Shown here: positions 59,145-64,000 of the stretch, piece after piece | Layout of the letters: each line of letters begins with the position of its first letter | Position numbering within the stretch: the stretch's first letter is position 1 | Assembly: GCA_025362975.1 (NCBI GenBank) | Contig: JANYES010000020.1 | Location: 1 to 64,000, forward strand | DNA length: 64,000 nucleotides | Origin: Alphaproteobacteria bacterium | Lineage (GTDB): Bacteria > Pseudomonadota > Alphaproteobacteria > Rickettsiales > SXRF01 | Direction of reading: 5' to 3' | Notes under the pieces: generated by a model | What the model saw: the letters and a program-made list of their open reading frames with translations, nothing else | Database searches by the model: none | Told to the model about the DNA's origin: nothing | Translations under genes and position numbers: made by a program

Positions 59145-59219
59145 GACCCCTTCATCTAGCGGTTAGGATACCGCCCTTTCACGGCGGGTGCACGGGTTCG
59201 ATTCCCGTAGGGGTCACCA
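59145..59219 (+). tRNA. tRNA-Glu (anticodon TTC)
   Basis: A complete 75-base tRNA with CCA encoded. Acceptor GACCCCT pairs with AGGGGTC; D-arm CATCTAGCGGTTAGGATA; anticodon arm CCGCC-CTTTCAC-GGCGG with TTC; T-arm CGGGTTCGATTCCCG. Its 3' end is the likely attachment site of the element carrying the adjacent integrase. Confidence 0.97.
59194..59219 (+). other. Probable left attachment site (attL) in tRNA-Glu
   Basis: The T-arm and acceptor 3' end of tRNA-Glu, 165 bases before a tyrosine integrase that reads away from it. Integrases of this class recombine into tRNA 3' ends and keep the tRNA intact. The matching attR would be a direct repeat of these bases beyond the right edge of the window. 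Confidence 0.6.
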
Positions 59220-59383: not shown

Positions 59384-60616
59384 ATGAAGCTCTCAAATTT
59401 AGACTGCAAAAACGCCAAGCCAACTGAAAAGCCTAGAAAAATGGCTGATGGTGGTGGGTTGTACCTAGAGGTAGCGCCCAACGGCAGTAAGTACTGGCGG
59501 ATGAAATACCGCTTCAATGGCAAGGAGAGCCGCCTCTCCTTTGGTCTTTATCCGGATGTATCCCTAGCAGAGGCGCGTGAAAAACGCCGTCTTGCCAAGA
59601 AAACGCTAGATGAAGGAAAGAACCCTAATGAAGAGAAGCGAATCGAGAAGCTCGAACGCCAGGTTAGCTATGAGAACAATTTTGAGAACATTGCACGCGA
59701 ATGGCATAAGGAAAAATATCATACATGGAAGCCGCTTCATGCTGCGCGGATTTTAACGAGGCTGGAAAAAGATGTTTTCCCGTCCGTGGGGGCACGACCT
59801 ATTAAGGCGATAAAGCCTATTGAGCTTTTGGCAGCCATTAGAAGAGTTGAAGATCGCGGTGCACACGACCTTGCTCACCGTACTATGCAGACCTGTAGCC
59901 AGATATTCCGCTATGGCGTTGCCACGGGCAGGGTTGAGCGTGATCCTACCGTTGATCTTCGCGGTGCATTAAAGCCGGTAAAGAGCGAAAACTATGCTTA
60001 CCTTGCTGAAGATGATTTGCCGCCGTTCCTAAAAAAACTTGAATGCTATGACTCGCATTACAACGGCCAACCACTCACCAAGCTAGCCTTTAAGCTGCTG
60101 TTGCTGACCTTCGTGCGTAGCGGCGAAATTCGTGGCGCACTATGGAAAGAGATTGATTGGGATAAAGCGCAATGGAAAATACCAGCTGAGCGCATGAAAA
60201 TGAAAGAACAGCATATTGTGCCACTTTCAAAGCAAAGCGTGGCTATATTGAAAGAGATACAGAAACTCACGGGTGATAGCTATGGTGGTTTCTTGTTCCC
60301 CAGCCAGCAGAACCCGCGAAAGATCATGAGTGAAAATACCTTCCTGCGTGTACTGGAAATTTTAGGCTACAAAGGCAAGGCAACGGCACATGGTTTCCGC
60401 TCAACTGCATCAACCATTTTAAACGAAAACGGATTTCGTTCCGATGTGATAGAGCGCCAATTAGCTCATGGTGAACGTGATCAGGTTCGCGCAGCATATA
60501 ATTATGCGCAATATCTTCCTGAACGAAAAGAAATGATGCATTGGTGGGCAAACTATATCGATAGCATCGCCATTTCTAACAAACGCCGTGTTAATAAGAT
60601 GAAACAGGGTAGCTGA
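59384..60616 (+). CDS. Tyrosine integrase (P4-like, DUF4102 N-terminus)
   Basis: A 410-residue site-specific recombinase. The N-terminal arm-binding domain (DUF4102-type) has KMADGGGLYLEVAPNGSKYW and ESRLSFGLYPDVSLAEAREK. A SAM-like core-binding region follows at about 95-190. The catalytic domain (about 205-390) has Arg in TFVRSGEIRGALWKEID, Lys in PLSKQS-type turn, HGFRSTAST (His and Arg), and the nucleophile Tyr in AAYNYAQYLPERKEMMHWW. It integrates the element into the adjacent tRNA-Glu. Confidence 0.95.
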   Translation: MKLSNLDCKNAKPTEKPRKMADGGGLYLEVAPNGSKYWRMKYRFNGKESRLSFGLYPDVSLAEAREKRRLAKKTLDEGKNPNEEKRIEKLERQVSYENNFENIAREWHKEKYHTWKPLHAARILTRLEKDVFPSVGARPIKAIKPIELLAAIRRVEDRGAHDLAHRTMQTCSQIFRYGVATGRVERDPTVDLRGALKPVKSENYAYLAEDDLPPFLKKLECYDSHYNGQPLTKLAFKLLLLTFVRSGEIRGALWKEIDWDKAQWKIPAERMKMKEQHIVPLSKQSVAILKEIQKLTGDSYGGFLFPSQQNPRKIMSENTFLRVLEILGYKGKATAHGFRSTASTILNENGFRSDVIERQLAHGERDQVRAAYNYAQYLPERKEMMHWWANYIDSIAISNKRRVNKMKQGS

Positions 60617-60653: not shown

Positions 60654-60863
60654 TTACCGGTTGCGACTGGCTTGCACGCGAGATTCTATCCAATCTTCAA
60701 TTTCTCTTTCCAGCCATCCTACGCTTCGTGCGCCAAGGCTAATATTTTCCGGAAAGCGATGTTCCTTTATAAGAGCATATATACTTGAGCGACTCAAACC
60801 CGTGCGGGTTTTTACATTTTCCAGGCGCAAAATACGTGTATTGGTTTGATTGGTCATGTGCAT
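60654..60863 (-). CDS. AlpA family regulator (excisionase-like)
   Basis: A 69-residue protein from ATG 60863 (GGAG lies 6 bases upstream; the longer frame begins at a TTG). Winged-helix core: ILRLENVKTRTGLSRSSIYA, LIKEHRFPENISLGARSVGW and LEREIEDWIESRV. AlpA proteins bind DNA and control integrase or excision in P4-like and CP4-57 elements. It converges on the integrase gene. Confidence 0.85.
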   Translation of the reverse strand: MHMTNQTNTRILRLENVKTRTGLSRSSIYALIKEHRFPENISLGARSVGWLEREIEDWIESRVQASRNR

Positions 60864-60950
60864 ACTAATCTCCAACAAAAATCAGTCAATATAATGTGTG
60901 GGAGCAACCTGTAGCTATTAGCTGCTTAGATGTTCACACAAAACCATCAT

Positions 60951-61003: not shown

Positions 61004-61669
61004 TCATACTCGACGTCCTAACCATAATACTCTCCCTGCAATACGAAGGTCGTCCGGATCGATGTCCTCCATGGGCGCATACGCGGGATTGTCACTGATG
61101 ATCGCCACCTTACCTTTGGCCGGATTCATCAGGAGTCGTTTTACATAGAGATAATTGTCGAATTGCAGCACATAAATGCCATCCGTGCGCGAGGCATTTT
61201 GGGTGCCGTCTACTAATACCGTATCACCATTTGAAAGTGTCGGCTCCATAGAGTCGCCATCCACTCTGATTACAGAAAGCTTGTCGAAAGGTGCGCTGCT
61301 AATCATACGCAGCCATTCCCTCCGAAAACTTAGGAAATGAAGGACGGATTCACGATCAGTAAGTGCACCATGTCCTGCGGATGCTTCAACATCGAACACT
61401 GGAATATGCACAAATTCTTCCGGCTTTGGAGTGTAATCAAGCTCTCTGTGCGGTGAATCTGAGGGCAATAATTCATGCGCCTGGATACCAAGATGCTTAG
61501 CCAGATTTTTTCTGACTTCTTCATCCAGTTTTTTAGGCACACCCTTATAAAGATACTGATGCAGATAGGCAGCATTGCGCCCAATAGCAAGCGATGCTTT
61601 CTTTAAATCCGTGACATCCGAACGCTCTTCAAAAATGTCTTTCAGACGTTTTCTTGCTGAATCTTTCAT
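61004..61669 (-). CDS. S24-type phage repressor (XRE HTH plus LexA-like peptidase)
   Basis: A 221-residue repressor. N-terminal HTH at about 10-60 (DVTDLKKASLAIGRNAAYLH). C-terminal S24 domain with the cleavage site region (VEASAGHGALTD), catalytic Ser in VDGDSMEPTLSNGDTVLVDG and Lys in YLYVKRLLMNPAKG. Such repressors hold the lysogenic state and cleave themselves with RecA after DNA damage. Divergent from the Cro-like gene over an 84-bp operator region. Confidence 0.92.
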   Translation of the reverse strand: MKDSARKRLKDIFEERSDVTDLKKASLAIGRNAAYLHQYLYKGVPKKLDEEVRKNLAKHLGIQAHELLPSDSPHRELDYTPKPEEFVHIPVFDVEASAGHGALTDRESVLHFLSFRREWLRMISSAPFDKLSVIRVDGDSMEPTLSNGDTVLVDGTQNASRTDGIYVLQFDNYLYVKRLLMNPAKGKVAIISDNPAYAPMEDIDPDDLRIAGRVLWLGRRV

Positions 61670-62707: not shown

Positions 62708-62870
62708 TATTGTCAGTGATCTTTCCTGTTTCTTTGAAGTGGAAACCAGCCAATCGTACCATGACCAGGGCATCAGCCCTTACGGGCGCGGCTACCGTGC
62801 AGCATTGCAAACGGTGCAGGTGAAATTGCAGGAGTCGTTCGAGGCAGCGGGACTTCTGCCAGGCGCTTAA
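62670..62870 (+). CDS. Small hypothetical protein
   Basis: A 66-residue protein from ATG 62670 (MAKKKQSSQQFGNIVSDLSC), overlapping the winged-helix gene by 38 bases. It contains SYHDQGISPYGRGYRAALQT and ends QESFEAAGLLPGA. No domain is recognised. It directly precedes the replication gene with a 42-bp gap. Confidence 0.55.
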   Translation: MAKKKQSSQQFGNIVSDLSCFFEVETSQSYHDQGISPYGRGYRAALQTVQVKLQESFEAAGLLPGA

Positions 62871-62912: not shown

Positions 62913-64000
62913 ATGAAAGTCTGGATCTGGCGACAGGCCATTTTGCGCGCGCGATTGGAACCAAGCAGCAAATTGCTGCTGTTGGCGCTCTCCACGTACA
63001 TGAATGATCATGGCGAAGGCTGCTATCCAAGTGTTGAGCAGTTATGCAAAGACACAAGCCTCAGCGAGCGAACGGTCTTTTATCACCTTAAAAAAGCCGA
63101 ATCAGAAGGTTTTCTCATCAAAGACAAGCGCGAATTGCCTGGCAAGAAATGGGCAGCCAATGAGTACCGTGCCGCAATTCCGGAATTGCCCGCTGCTGCA
63201 ATAGTTGCAGTAGATAGCTCAGAGGTGCAGTCAATGCACCCCATAGAAAGGGCTGCAATAGATGCACCCCATGACGCAAAGTGGGATGCAACCATTGCAG
63301 TTGAGGGGTGCAATGGTTGCAGCGATGGGGTGCAACCATTGCATACTAACTCTTCAGAGAACTCTCCACTTAACTCTCCAATAGAATTATCCCCGAAAGG
63401 CAAAAAATCTTATCCACCGGAATTCGAGCAGTTCTGGTCGGCGTGGCCAGCAGTTCGCCGCTGCGAAAAGCCGAATGCTTACACAGCATGGCGAGATGCT
63501 TGTAAGAAAATCACACCGGTTTCCCTGATGGCAGCACTACGGCGGTATGTACTGACCAAAGAAGCTACGGACGGCTTTGCCCCATACCCGGCTAAATGGC
63601 TTAAGCGCGAACGCTGGCTGGAATTCACATCAGCAGAAAGTATACCCCCTCCCCCTATTTGTATAAATGCCAGCGATACGCTGGAAAATGCAGAATGGCT
63701 CGTCATTCTACAGCATTTGCGCAGCAAACATGGCGAAGCGGTCTGCCGCAGCTGGTTTAGCCAGCTGCGGCAGATGAATAAACAAGACGGCCAGCTGACG
63801 CTGCAGGCACCGACACGCTTTGTAGCTGAATGGATAAAGAGTCACTATGCAGCTGACATCTTGCAAGCGGTGCAAAGCGTATGGCCAGACATTACCGCTG
63901 TTCGTATCGAAGGCAGCCCTGCGCCTCAAACAAATAGGCAATTTCCTACGGAAAAGACCACTCCTGCCACTCCCGCATGGAGCGATTCCGGGCAACAATA
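62913..64000 (+). CDS. Phage-type replication initiator: HTH_36 plus DnaA domain-I-like module (partial)
   Basis: At least 362 residues; the frame runs to the window edge. The N-terminal winged helix (about 1-90: SSKLLLLALSTYMNDHGEGC, YPSVEQLCKDTSLSERTVFY, HLKKAESEGFLI) is of the HTH_36 replication-protein type. A low-complexity linker (about 95-160) is followed by FEQFWSAWPAVRRCEKPNAY and PYPAKWLKRERWLE, seen in lambda O-like proteins. Residues about 257-333 (CRSWFSQLRQMNKQDGQLTL, FVAEWIKSHYAADILQAV) resemble DnaA domain I, which recruits DnaB helicase. The linker DNA contains iteron-like repeats. The start has a weak ribosome-binding site (AAGGA). Confidence 0.8.
   Translation, partial: MKVWIWRQAILRARLEPSSKLLLLALSTYMNDHGEGCYPSVEQLCKDTSLSERTVFYHLKKAESEGFLIKDKRELPGKKWAANEYRAAIPELPAAAIVAVDSSEVQSMHPIERAAIDAPHDAKWDATIAVEGCNGCSDGVQPLHTNSSENSPLNSPIELSPKGKKSYPPEFEQFWSAWPAVRRCEKPNAYTAWRDACKKITPVSLMAALRRYVLTKEATDGFAPYPAKWLKRERWLEFTSAESIPPPPICINASDTLENAEWLVILQHLRSKHGEAVCRSWFSQLRQMNKQDGQLTLQAPTRFVAEWIKSHYAADILQAVQSVWPDITAVRIEGSPAPQTNRQFPTEKTTPATPAWSDSGQQ
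63197..63418. other. Candidate replication origin inside the initiator gene
   Basis: Six 13-mers of the form TGCA-N5-TGCA start at 63197, 63226, 63254, 63287, 63309 and 63331; the last three are 22 bp apart, two helical turns. Four are TGCAA-N3-TTGCA palindromes. They fall in all three codon phases, so protein repeats do not explain them. Next come three 12-bp direct repeats starting AACTCT at 63348, 63360 and 63372, in a less GC-rich stretch. TTATCCACC at 63410-63418 matches a DnaA box at 8 of 9 bases. The layout is that of lambda ori inside gene O. Confidence 0.6.

Follow-up and report, generated by a model that had tools for sequence, protein, structure and literature searches.

The last gene of a 64,000-nucleotide stretch of DNA (the window) very probably contains the replication origin of the ICE that carries it, as ori-lambda lies inside gene O. 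This replication initiator gene (62913–64000, forward strand, its stop codon ending at 64001, one base beyond the window) encodes a 362-residue protein with HTH_36 and DnaA_N domains, matching PHROG_270. An origin of lambda type is well supported by the anatomy of the segment as read from its letters. Six TGCA-N5-TGCA iterons (63197–63343, forward strand) start at 63197, 63226, 63254, 63287, 63309 and 63331, the last three at 22-bp spacing, and are followed on the same strand by a presumed unwinding element (63348–63392) of 12-bp direct repeats, AACTCT(T/C)C at 63348, 63360 and 63372 plus a looser AATTATCC at 63385, and by an A-rich stretch (63393–63418) ending in the DnaA-box-like TTATCCACC (63410–63418). 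The six 13-mers and the three AACTCT repeats had been reported in an earlier sequence-only reading; all six 13-mers were recovered at the same starts, the AACTCT repeats were confirmed by reading the sequence, and the dyads do occupy all three codon phases (2, 1, 2, 2, 0 and 1). In the whole window the exact TGCA-N5-TGCA pattern was observed 12 times against 1.85 expected from 100 dinucleotide shuffles, of which the largest count was 6. GC content is 0.39 over the 75 bp beyond the last clustered dyad compared with 0.51 for the whole initiator gene, and the proposed lambda-like order of dyad iterons, direct repeats and low GC inside an initiator gene is supported. TTATCCACC had been singled out as well and is indeed present, but its conservation as a DnaA box is not borne out: in genome G492 the sister gene has TTATCCAGC and no DnaA box was found in the corresponding 75 bp of the homologue in genome G484, so a conserved DnaA box beside the iterons was rejected. 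An extra TGCAAACGGTGCA at 62806–62818, 107 bp 5' of the initiator start codon, may be an autoregulatory site or may be there by chance.

Lambda O binds DNA through its N-terminal part and makes the helicase-loading contact through its C-terminal part. In the window protein, Pfam identified an HTH_36 winged helix at residues 14–68 (62952–63116, forward strand; 6.4e-13), presumably the iteron-binding domain, and a DnaA_N domain resembling DnaA domain I at residues 261–321 (63693–63875, forward strand; 1.1e-15), presumably the contact to host DnaB. The siting of the repeats between the winged helix and the C-terminal domains is supported by both Pfam and AlphaFold. The AlphaFold model has a confident winged helix at the N-terminus (block-mean pLDDT 82–97 over residues 11–70), a linker predicted to be disordered (pLDDT under 50, residues 98–172) and a C-terminus modelled with low to moderate confidence, with a mean pLDDT of 56.6 for the whole model. 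The C-terminus is a DnaA domain I by sequence and by fold, with a match of the DnaA_N half to 2e0g (E 0.0014) and a DnaA domain I fold match to 4tps (Z 9.4, 3.1 A over 81 residues). The closest solved folds also include winged helices, with replication-initiator entries among them: 4pt7, 'Structure of initiator' (Z 8.3, 3.5 A over 92 residues), and RctB domain 1 (5ube; Z 8.3, 2.7 A over 86), scores that are equalled by many unrelated winged helices. A PDB sequence search with the N-terminal profile gave nothing significant (best E 0.38). Among PHROGs the protein matched phrog_270, a replication initiation protein (5.7e-32), phrog_1032 (3.6e-18) and the O-like phrog_391 (1.3e-12); Phage_rep_O, which we take to be the Pfam name for comparison with lambda O, was absent among the six Pfam families matching at E ≤ 1.

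The host element is a Trb-type ICE and not, as the sequence-only reading had supposed, a prophage, since the initiator gene is flanked by a tyrosine integrase on one side and, on the other, by a Trb conjugation operon with relaxase and oriT. Upstream of the initiator lie a tRNA-Glu gene (59145–59219, forward strand), presumably the ICE integration site, the tyrosine integrase gene (59384–60616, forward strand; Phage_integrase 1.4e-23), an AlpA-type regulator (60654–60878, reverse strand; 5.8e-22) and a CI-like S24 peptidase repressor (61004–61669, reverse strand; Pfam and PHROGs). Directly 3' of the initiator on the same contig (C3) are TrbB- (T2SSE), TrbE-, VirB8/TrbF-, CagX/TrbG-, TrbI- and TrbL-like genes together with genes for a TraF-type peptidase and a TraG-type coupling protein, and beyond this operon lie a relaxase gene (Pfam 1.2e-35), a NikA-like gene and an oriT at C3:80005–80069. 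On the left side the tRNA-Glu gene stands beside the integrase; no right end was found before the contig ends at 82695. Reading of the open reading frames of G492 revealed a sister ICE with an initiator at the equivalent site beside trbB. A second Trb-type ICE in the same genome as the window, on contig C16 (L320, L340), has an oriT, a MobC-like gene, a relaxase and a TraG-like gene and carries a WYL-domain regulator gene in the initiator's place, directly before trbB, indicating that the module is not present in every such ICE.

When the whole protein was searched against genomes of the class, 79 of 385 matched; among the matches listed, all but the window's own started at residue 226 or later, in the DnaA_N half, as those of DnaA would, and the N-terminal 250 residues were therefore used as the later query. 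These matched seven of the 262 genomes of the order, counting that of the window. With an N-terminal-domain profile, 14 viral loci encoding 11 distinct proteins were identified, and all 14 have at least one TGxA-N5-TxCA dyad inside the gene beyond the HTH, x being mostly A. One layout is common to the window gene, the viral contigs, the sister genomes and Pseudomonas phage JBD68. Dyads of the form TGxA-N5-TxCA, with x varying by lineage (C in the window, A in most, T in one), lead into a junction TxCA-NN-CTAA that is exact in 12 of 18 genes and then into short repeats at steps of about 12 bp. GC content drops after the dyads in 16 of the 18 genes, several of the drops being small, and is not lower in the other two (L283 and L297). 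The sequence-only reading had made its proposal depend on TGCA-N5-TGCA clusters in homologous linkers; taken literally this did not hold, as most homologues examined lack that 13-mer, but as a class their linkers carry TGAA- or TGTA-type dyads. Similarly, its suggestion of a separate initiator-origin class was only partly right, since in PHROGs the protein falls among replication initiation and O-like families and the same layout occurs in viral contigs and JBD68. ICE genes surround the window and G492 copies and phage terminase and portal genes lie near the G484 and G469 relatives; ICEs and phages thus both carry this initiator class.

The palindromic 13-mer was present in three of eight named relatives (JBD68, CF183a and LittleTokyo) and absent from the other five (pAtCFBP5507b, Cafasso, KS9, BgVeeders33 and ctRVW222). 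The Agrobacterium phage-plasmid pAtCFBP5507b has other iterons yet retains AACTCTCC-type 12-mers, and KS9 and BgVeeders33 have ACTAAC/ACTAAT at the expected junction position. DnaA_N scored above the Pfam cut-off in G492, G484, L281 and L284 and just below it in L283, and was not found by Pfam in L282, L276, JBD68, pAtCFBP5507b or L291. The window gene has TGCA dyads; G492, L282 and the viral loci have TGAA, L283 has TGTA, and G484 mixes TGAA with TGCA. At residue 57, in the recognition helix, the window protein and JBD68 (both TGCA) carry Y, the TGAA genes and the mixed G484 encode T, and the TGTA gene encodes D; LittleTokyo (N with TGCA) and L296 (D with one TGAA dyad) break the pattern, and a rule linking residue 57 to the iteron base is suggestive only. 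More distant HTH_36 initiators have different linker repeats. The HTH_36 initiators L281, L284 and L326 carry ACCCACCCC-like, TGACA/TGTCA-like and GGGGGCGCTGCGCCCC-like linker repeats, and L281 keeps 57% identity over window residues 155–240, as if winged helix and iterons had been swapped jointly.

The linker segment is selected as DNA, and on this earlier claim codon shuffles and synonymous-codon conservation agree. The initiator gene contains seven palindromic TGxA-N5-TxCA sites, the six clustered dyads and one at 63862, compared with a mean of 0.82 and a maximum of 4 in 2000 codon shuffles that kept protein and codon usage constant (p = 0.0005). The same test gave p ≤ 0.0205 in 14 of 16 genes and failed in L296 (p 0.41) and L297 (p 0.11). 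This set of 16 omitted the order matches with other linker repeats (L281 and L284), L289 and L290 (on contigs shared with L276 and L277), L298–L300 (identical in protein to L297) and the eight named relatives above. At residues shared with G484, codons were identical at 9 of 10 positions in the linker and 12 of 13 in the AACTCT stretch, as against 12 of 42 in the HTH, 17 of 45 in the middle part and 8 of 25 in DnaA_N. The corresponding values for G492 were 9/11 and 20/22, as against 32/61, 35/55 and 43/56.

The 12-mer pattern AACTCT-N6-AACTCT-N6-AACYCT was also scanned for alone in viral and genome contigs, giving 119 stretches in the former and at least 116 in the latter. Many of the stretches listed are 12-bp tandem repeats and no match to the initiator was found by phmmer among the longest open reading frames over these sites, so the pattern alone was rejected as an origin marker for want of specificity. 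Across the class it occurred in 3 of 385 genomes, those other than the window's having single one-mismatch sites (G048 and G269), and the reversed-pattern control also gave matches. Across the order, 10 of 262 genomes had sites with up to three mismatches; the five sites with none are the window, two copies on contig C23 of the same genome, G492 and G484, and the seven with two or three were fewer than the matches of the reversed-pattern control. In viral loci such as L021, L049, L056, L075 and L082, AACTCT/TCTCTC 12-mers lie antisense within open reading frames of about 300–350 codons, in some cases followed by TGTCC/GGACA repeats, and are perhaps embedded origins of another phage group.

Within the 3.26-Mb genome, the triple AACTCT pattern with at most one mismatch has three sites, the window and two on C23 (reversed-pattern control, 0). 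The C23 copies lie on an island of about 7 kb with an integrase, two unknown genes, a Type IIG restriction enzyme, AlpA and two oriT copies in inverted orientation, 90–94% identical to that of the ICE; neither relaxase nor initiator was found on it. With an integrase, a helper-like oriT and no relaxase found, C23 is a putative mobilizable island. Both orphan modules are non-coding and stand in tandem just past the integrase gene, which ends at 2447, the first dyad following after 58 bp. Module 1 has TGTA-type dyads at 2505 and 2549, repeats at 2566–2595 and an open linker frame, which aligns to the linker protein with 40.6% identity over residues 120–182; G484 is its nearest match overall (74.6% over 126 bp), although the TGTA type of its dyads is that of L283. 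In module 2 there are four TGAA dyads, the first at 2649, repeats at 2743–2772 and a linker frame broken by two stops; over 127 bp it matches the origin of the G492 sister ICE at 83.5% identity (E 5e-36). Of the 21 mismatches between these two, a single one affects the 32 half-site positions (Fisher p 0.025), and at that position the dyad is perfect in the orphan. No trace of a winged helix or DnaA_N was found by tblastn beside the modules in the first 9 kb of C23, and no other initiator of the class was found in the genome, so any helpers for the TGTA and TGAA modules would have to be supplied from elsewhere, as in the sister species G492. The right end of the island may lie at C23:8246, where 11 bp of the tRNA-Pro end are repeated; the tRNA-Pro genes of C23 and G492 share 99% identity. 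No empty site was found in five relatives: the flank beyond the island was unmatched, and the tRNA-Pro flank matched over the tRNA alone. As the assembly consists of 28 contigs with 3.56% estimated contamination, placement of C23 in the same cell as C3 rests on the assembly. Three islands in the window's genome (G000), on C20 (L319:5352 and 14165), C16 (L321:5119 and 13784) and C23 (L285:3127 and 7614), each have two inverted copies of the same oriT bracketing cargo: two-component and other genes, as judged by reading, on C20, Zorya ZorABCD on C16 and the Type IIG restriction enzyme on C23; the C20 and C16 islands also hold a NikA-like gene.

We tentatively interpret the orphan modules as borrowed origins of a satellite that also borrows its helpers' oriT. 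They could equally be functionless remnants of initiator genes left by earlier ICEs or phages at the tRNA-Pro site, a quite plausible reading if still short of probable: module 1 has kept its linker frame open and aligns to the linker protein, only a single island with such copies was found and no further initiator of the class turned up in the genome. Remnants would not be expected to lack any winged-helix or DnaA_N trace nearby, to place two modules with different iterons in tandem so close to the integrase gene, or to spare the half-sites of module 2 and keep a perfect dyad. The copies might instead serve as decoys, capturing incoming initiators and thereby shielding the island or its host from competing ICEs or phages. 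Plasmid copies of ori-lambda block lambda replication, according to the available part of PMC4488673, and the island also has a restriction enzyme; iterons alone would suffice for a decoy, yet the 12-mers and A-rich part are retained, and this function seems unlikely.

For the window itself, the initiator might use the dyads as operators, repressing or tuning transcription inside its own gene with no start of replication. It is a winged-helix DNA binder by Pfam and a further dyad stands 107 bp before the start codon at 62806, but operators leave unexplained the fixed junction to the 12-mer repeats (12/18 genes), the lower GC after the dyads (16/18), the DnaA domain I and the module copies without a gene, making this account very improbable. 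Even harder to credit is a protein-level account of the repeats, in which the linker is of low complexity and its repeated codons merely resemble DNA sites. The linker is predicted to be disordered (pLDDT under 50 for residues 98–172) and the AACTCT repeats translate to NSSENSPLNS; against this, the dyads occupy all three phases, codon shuffles fail to reproduce them, synonymous codons are conserved mainly at the linker repeats and a C23 copy is interrupted by stops, so that the codon tests and this copy already contradict it.

If the segment is an origin embedded in its own initiator gene, the winged helix would bind TGCA-N5-TGCA as a dimer, the adjoining 12-mer and A-rich stretch would melt, and DnaA domain I would recruit host DnaB without a phage loader; the excised ICE would therefore, we propose, replicate as a circle, by theta mode. 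The module may also act in trans, the C23 island being replicated by initiators of other elements. As in lambda O/ori-lambda and Stx relatives, the iterons lie inside the initiator gene; those of lambda and Stx phages are bound by the initiator, and of six repeats in the Stx ori four are bound strongly, as given in the available part of PMC7466680. The window initiator differs from lambda O in having HTH_36 instead of Phage_rep_O, a C-terminal DnaA domain I and an ICE host, and its origin differs from ori-lambda in iteron sequence and 12-mer repeat array. JBD68 gp54, annotated as a hypothetical protein, shares HTH_36, three palindromic TGCA-type dyads (two of them overlapping) and GGGGTGC starts at 22-bp steps inside the gene, but has no DnaA_N.

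The ICEs ICEBs1 and SXT/R391 likewise have a plasmid-like phase and, in the portion of PMC4489591 at hand, replicate using relaxase and oriT; unlike the elements as described there, the window ICE also encodes a dedicated iteron origin and its own initiator. Like MGIVflInd1, a relaxase-less mobilizable island copying its helper's oriT in the text available from PMC5704250, the C23 island has an integrase, no relaxase that was found and oriT copies resembling those of the ICE; it differs from that description in also having two orphan replication-origin modules. Each of SGI1 and PLE has an initiator gene of its own, according to the available parts of PMC7433901 and PMC7145576, and if C23 is a satellite it would share with them helper-dependent replication of a small integrated element, although no initiator of its own was found. 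Neither the initiator architecture nor borrowed origins were described in any open-access title or abstract opening searched, subscription journals being mostly outside this scope.

With an iteron origin inside an ICE's own initiator gene, whether an ICE can replicate by theta mode becomes open to direct test. Functional orphan modules would exemplify a satellite strategy in which the helper's origin of replication is borrowed along with its oriT; origin borrowing by satellites is not described in the available parts of PMC7433901, PMC7145576 and PMC5704250. Variation of the x base on a near-identical layout provides a natural series for studying joint change in initiator and origin specificity. 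It is possible, though we suggest it with some reserve, that the origin module is a transferable unit: satellites lacking both initiator and relaxase genes would capture stand-alone iteron variants beside copied oriT sites and be replicated and transferred by any active helper ICE or phage, with small changes in the recognition helix (residue 57: Y for TGCA, T for TGAA, D for TGTA) switching one base per half-site.
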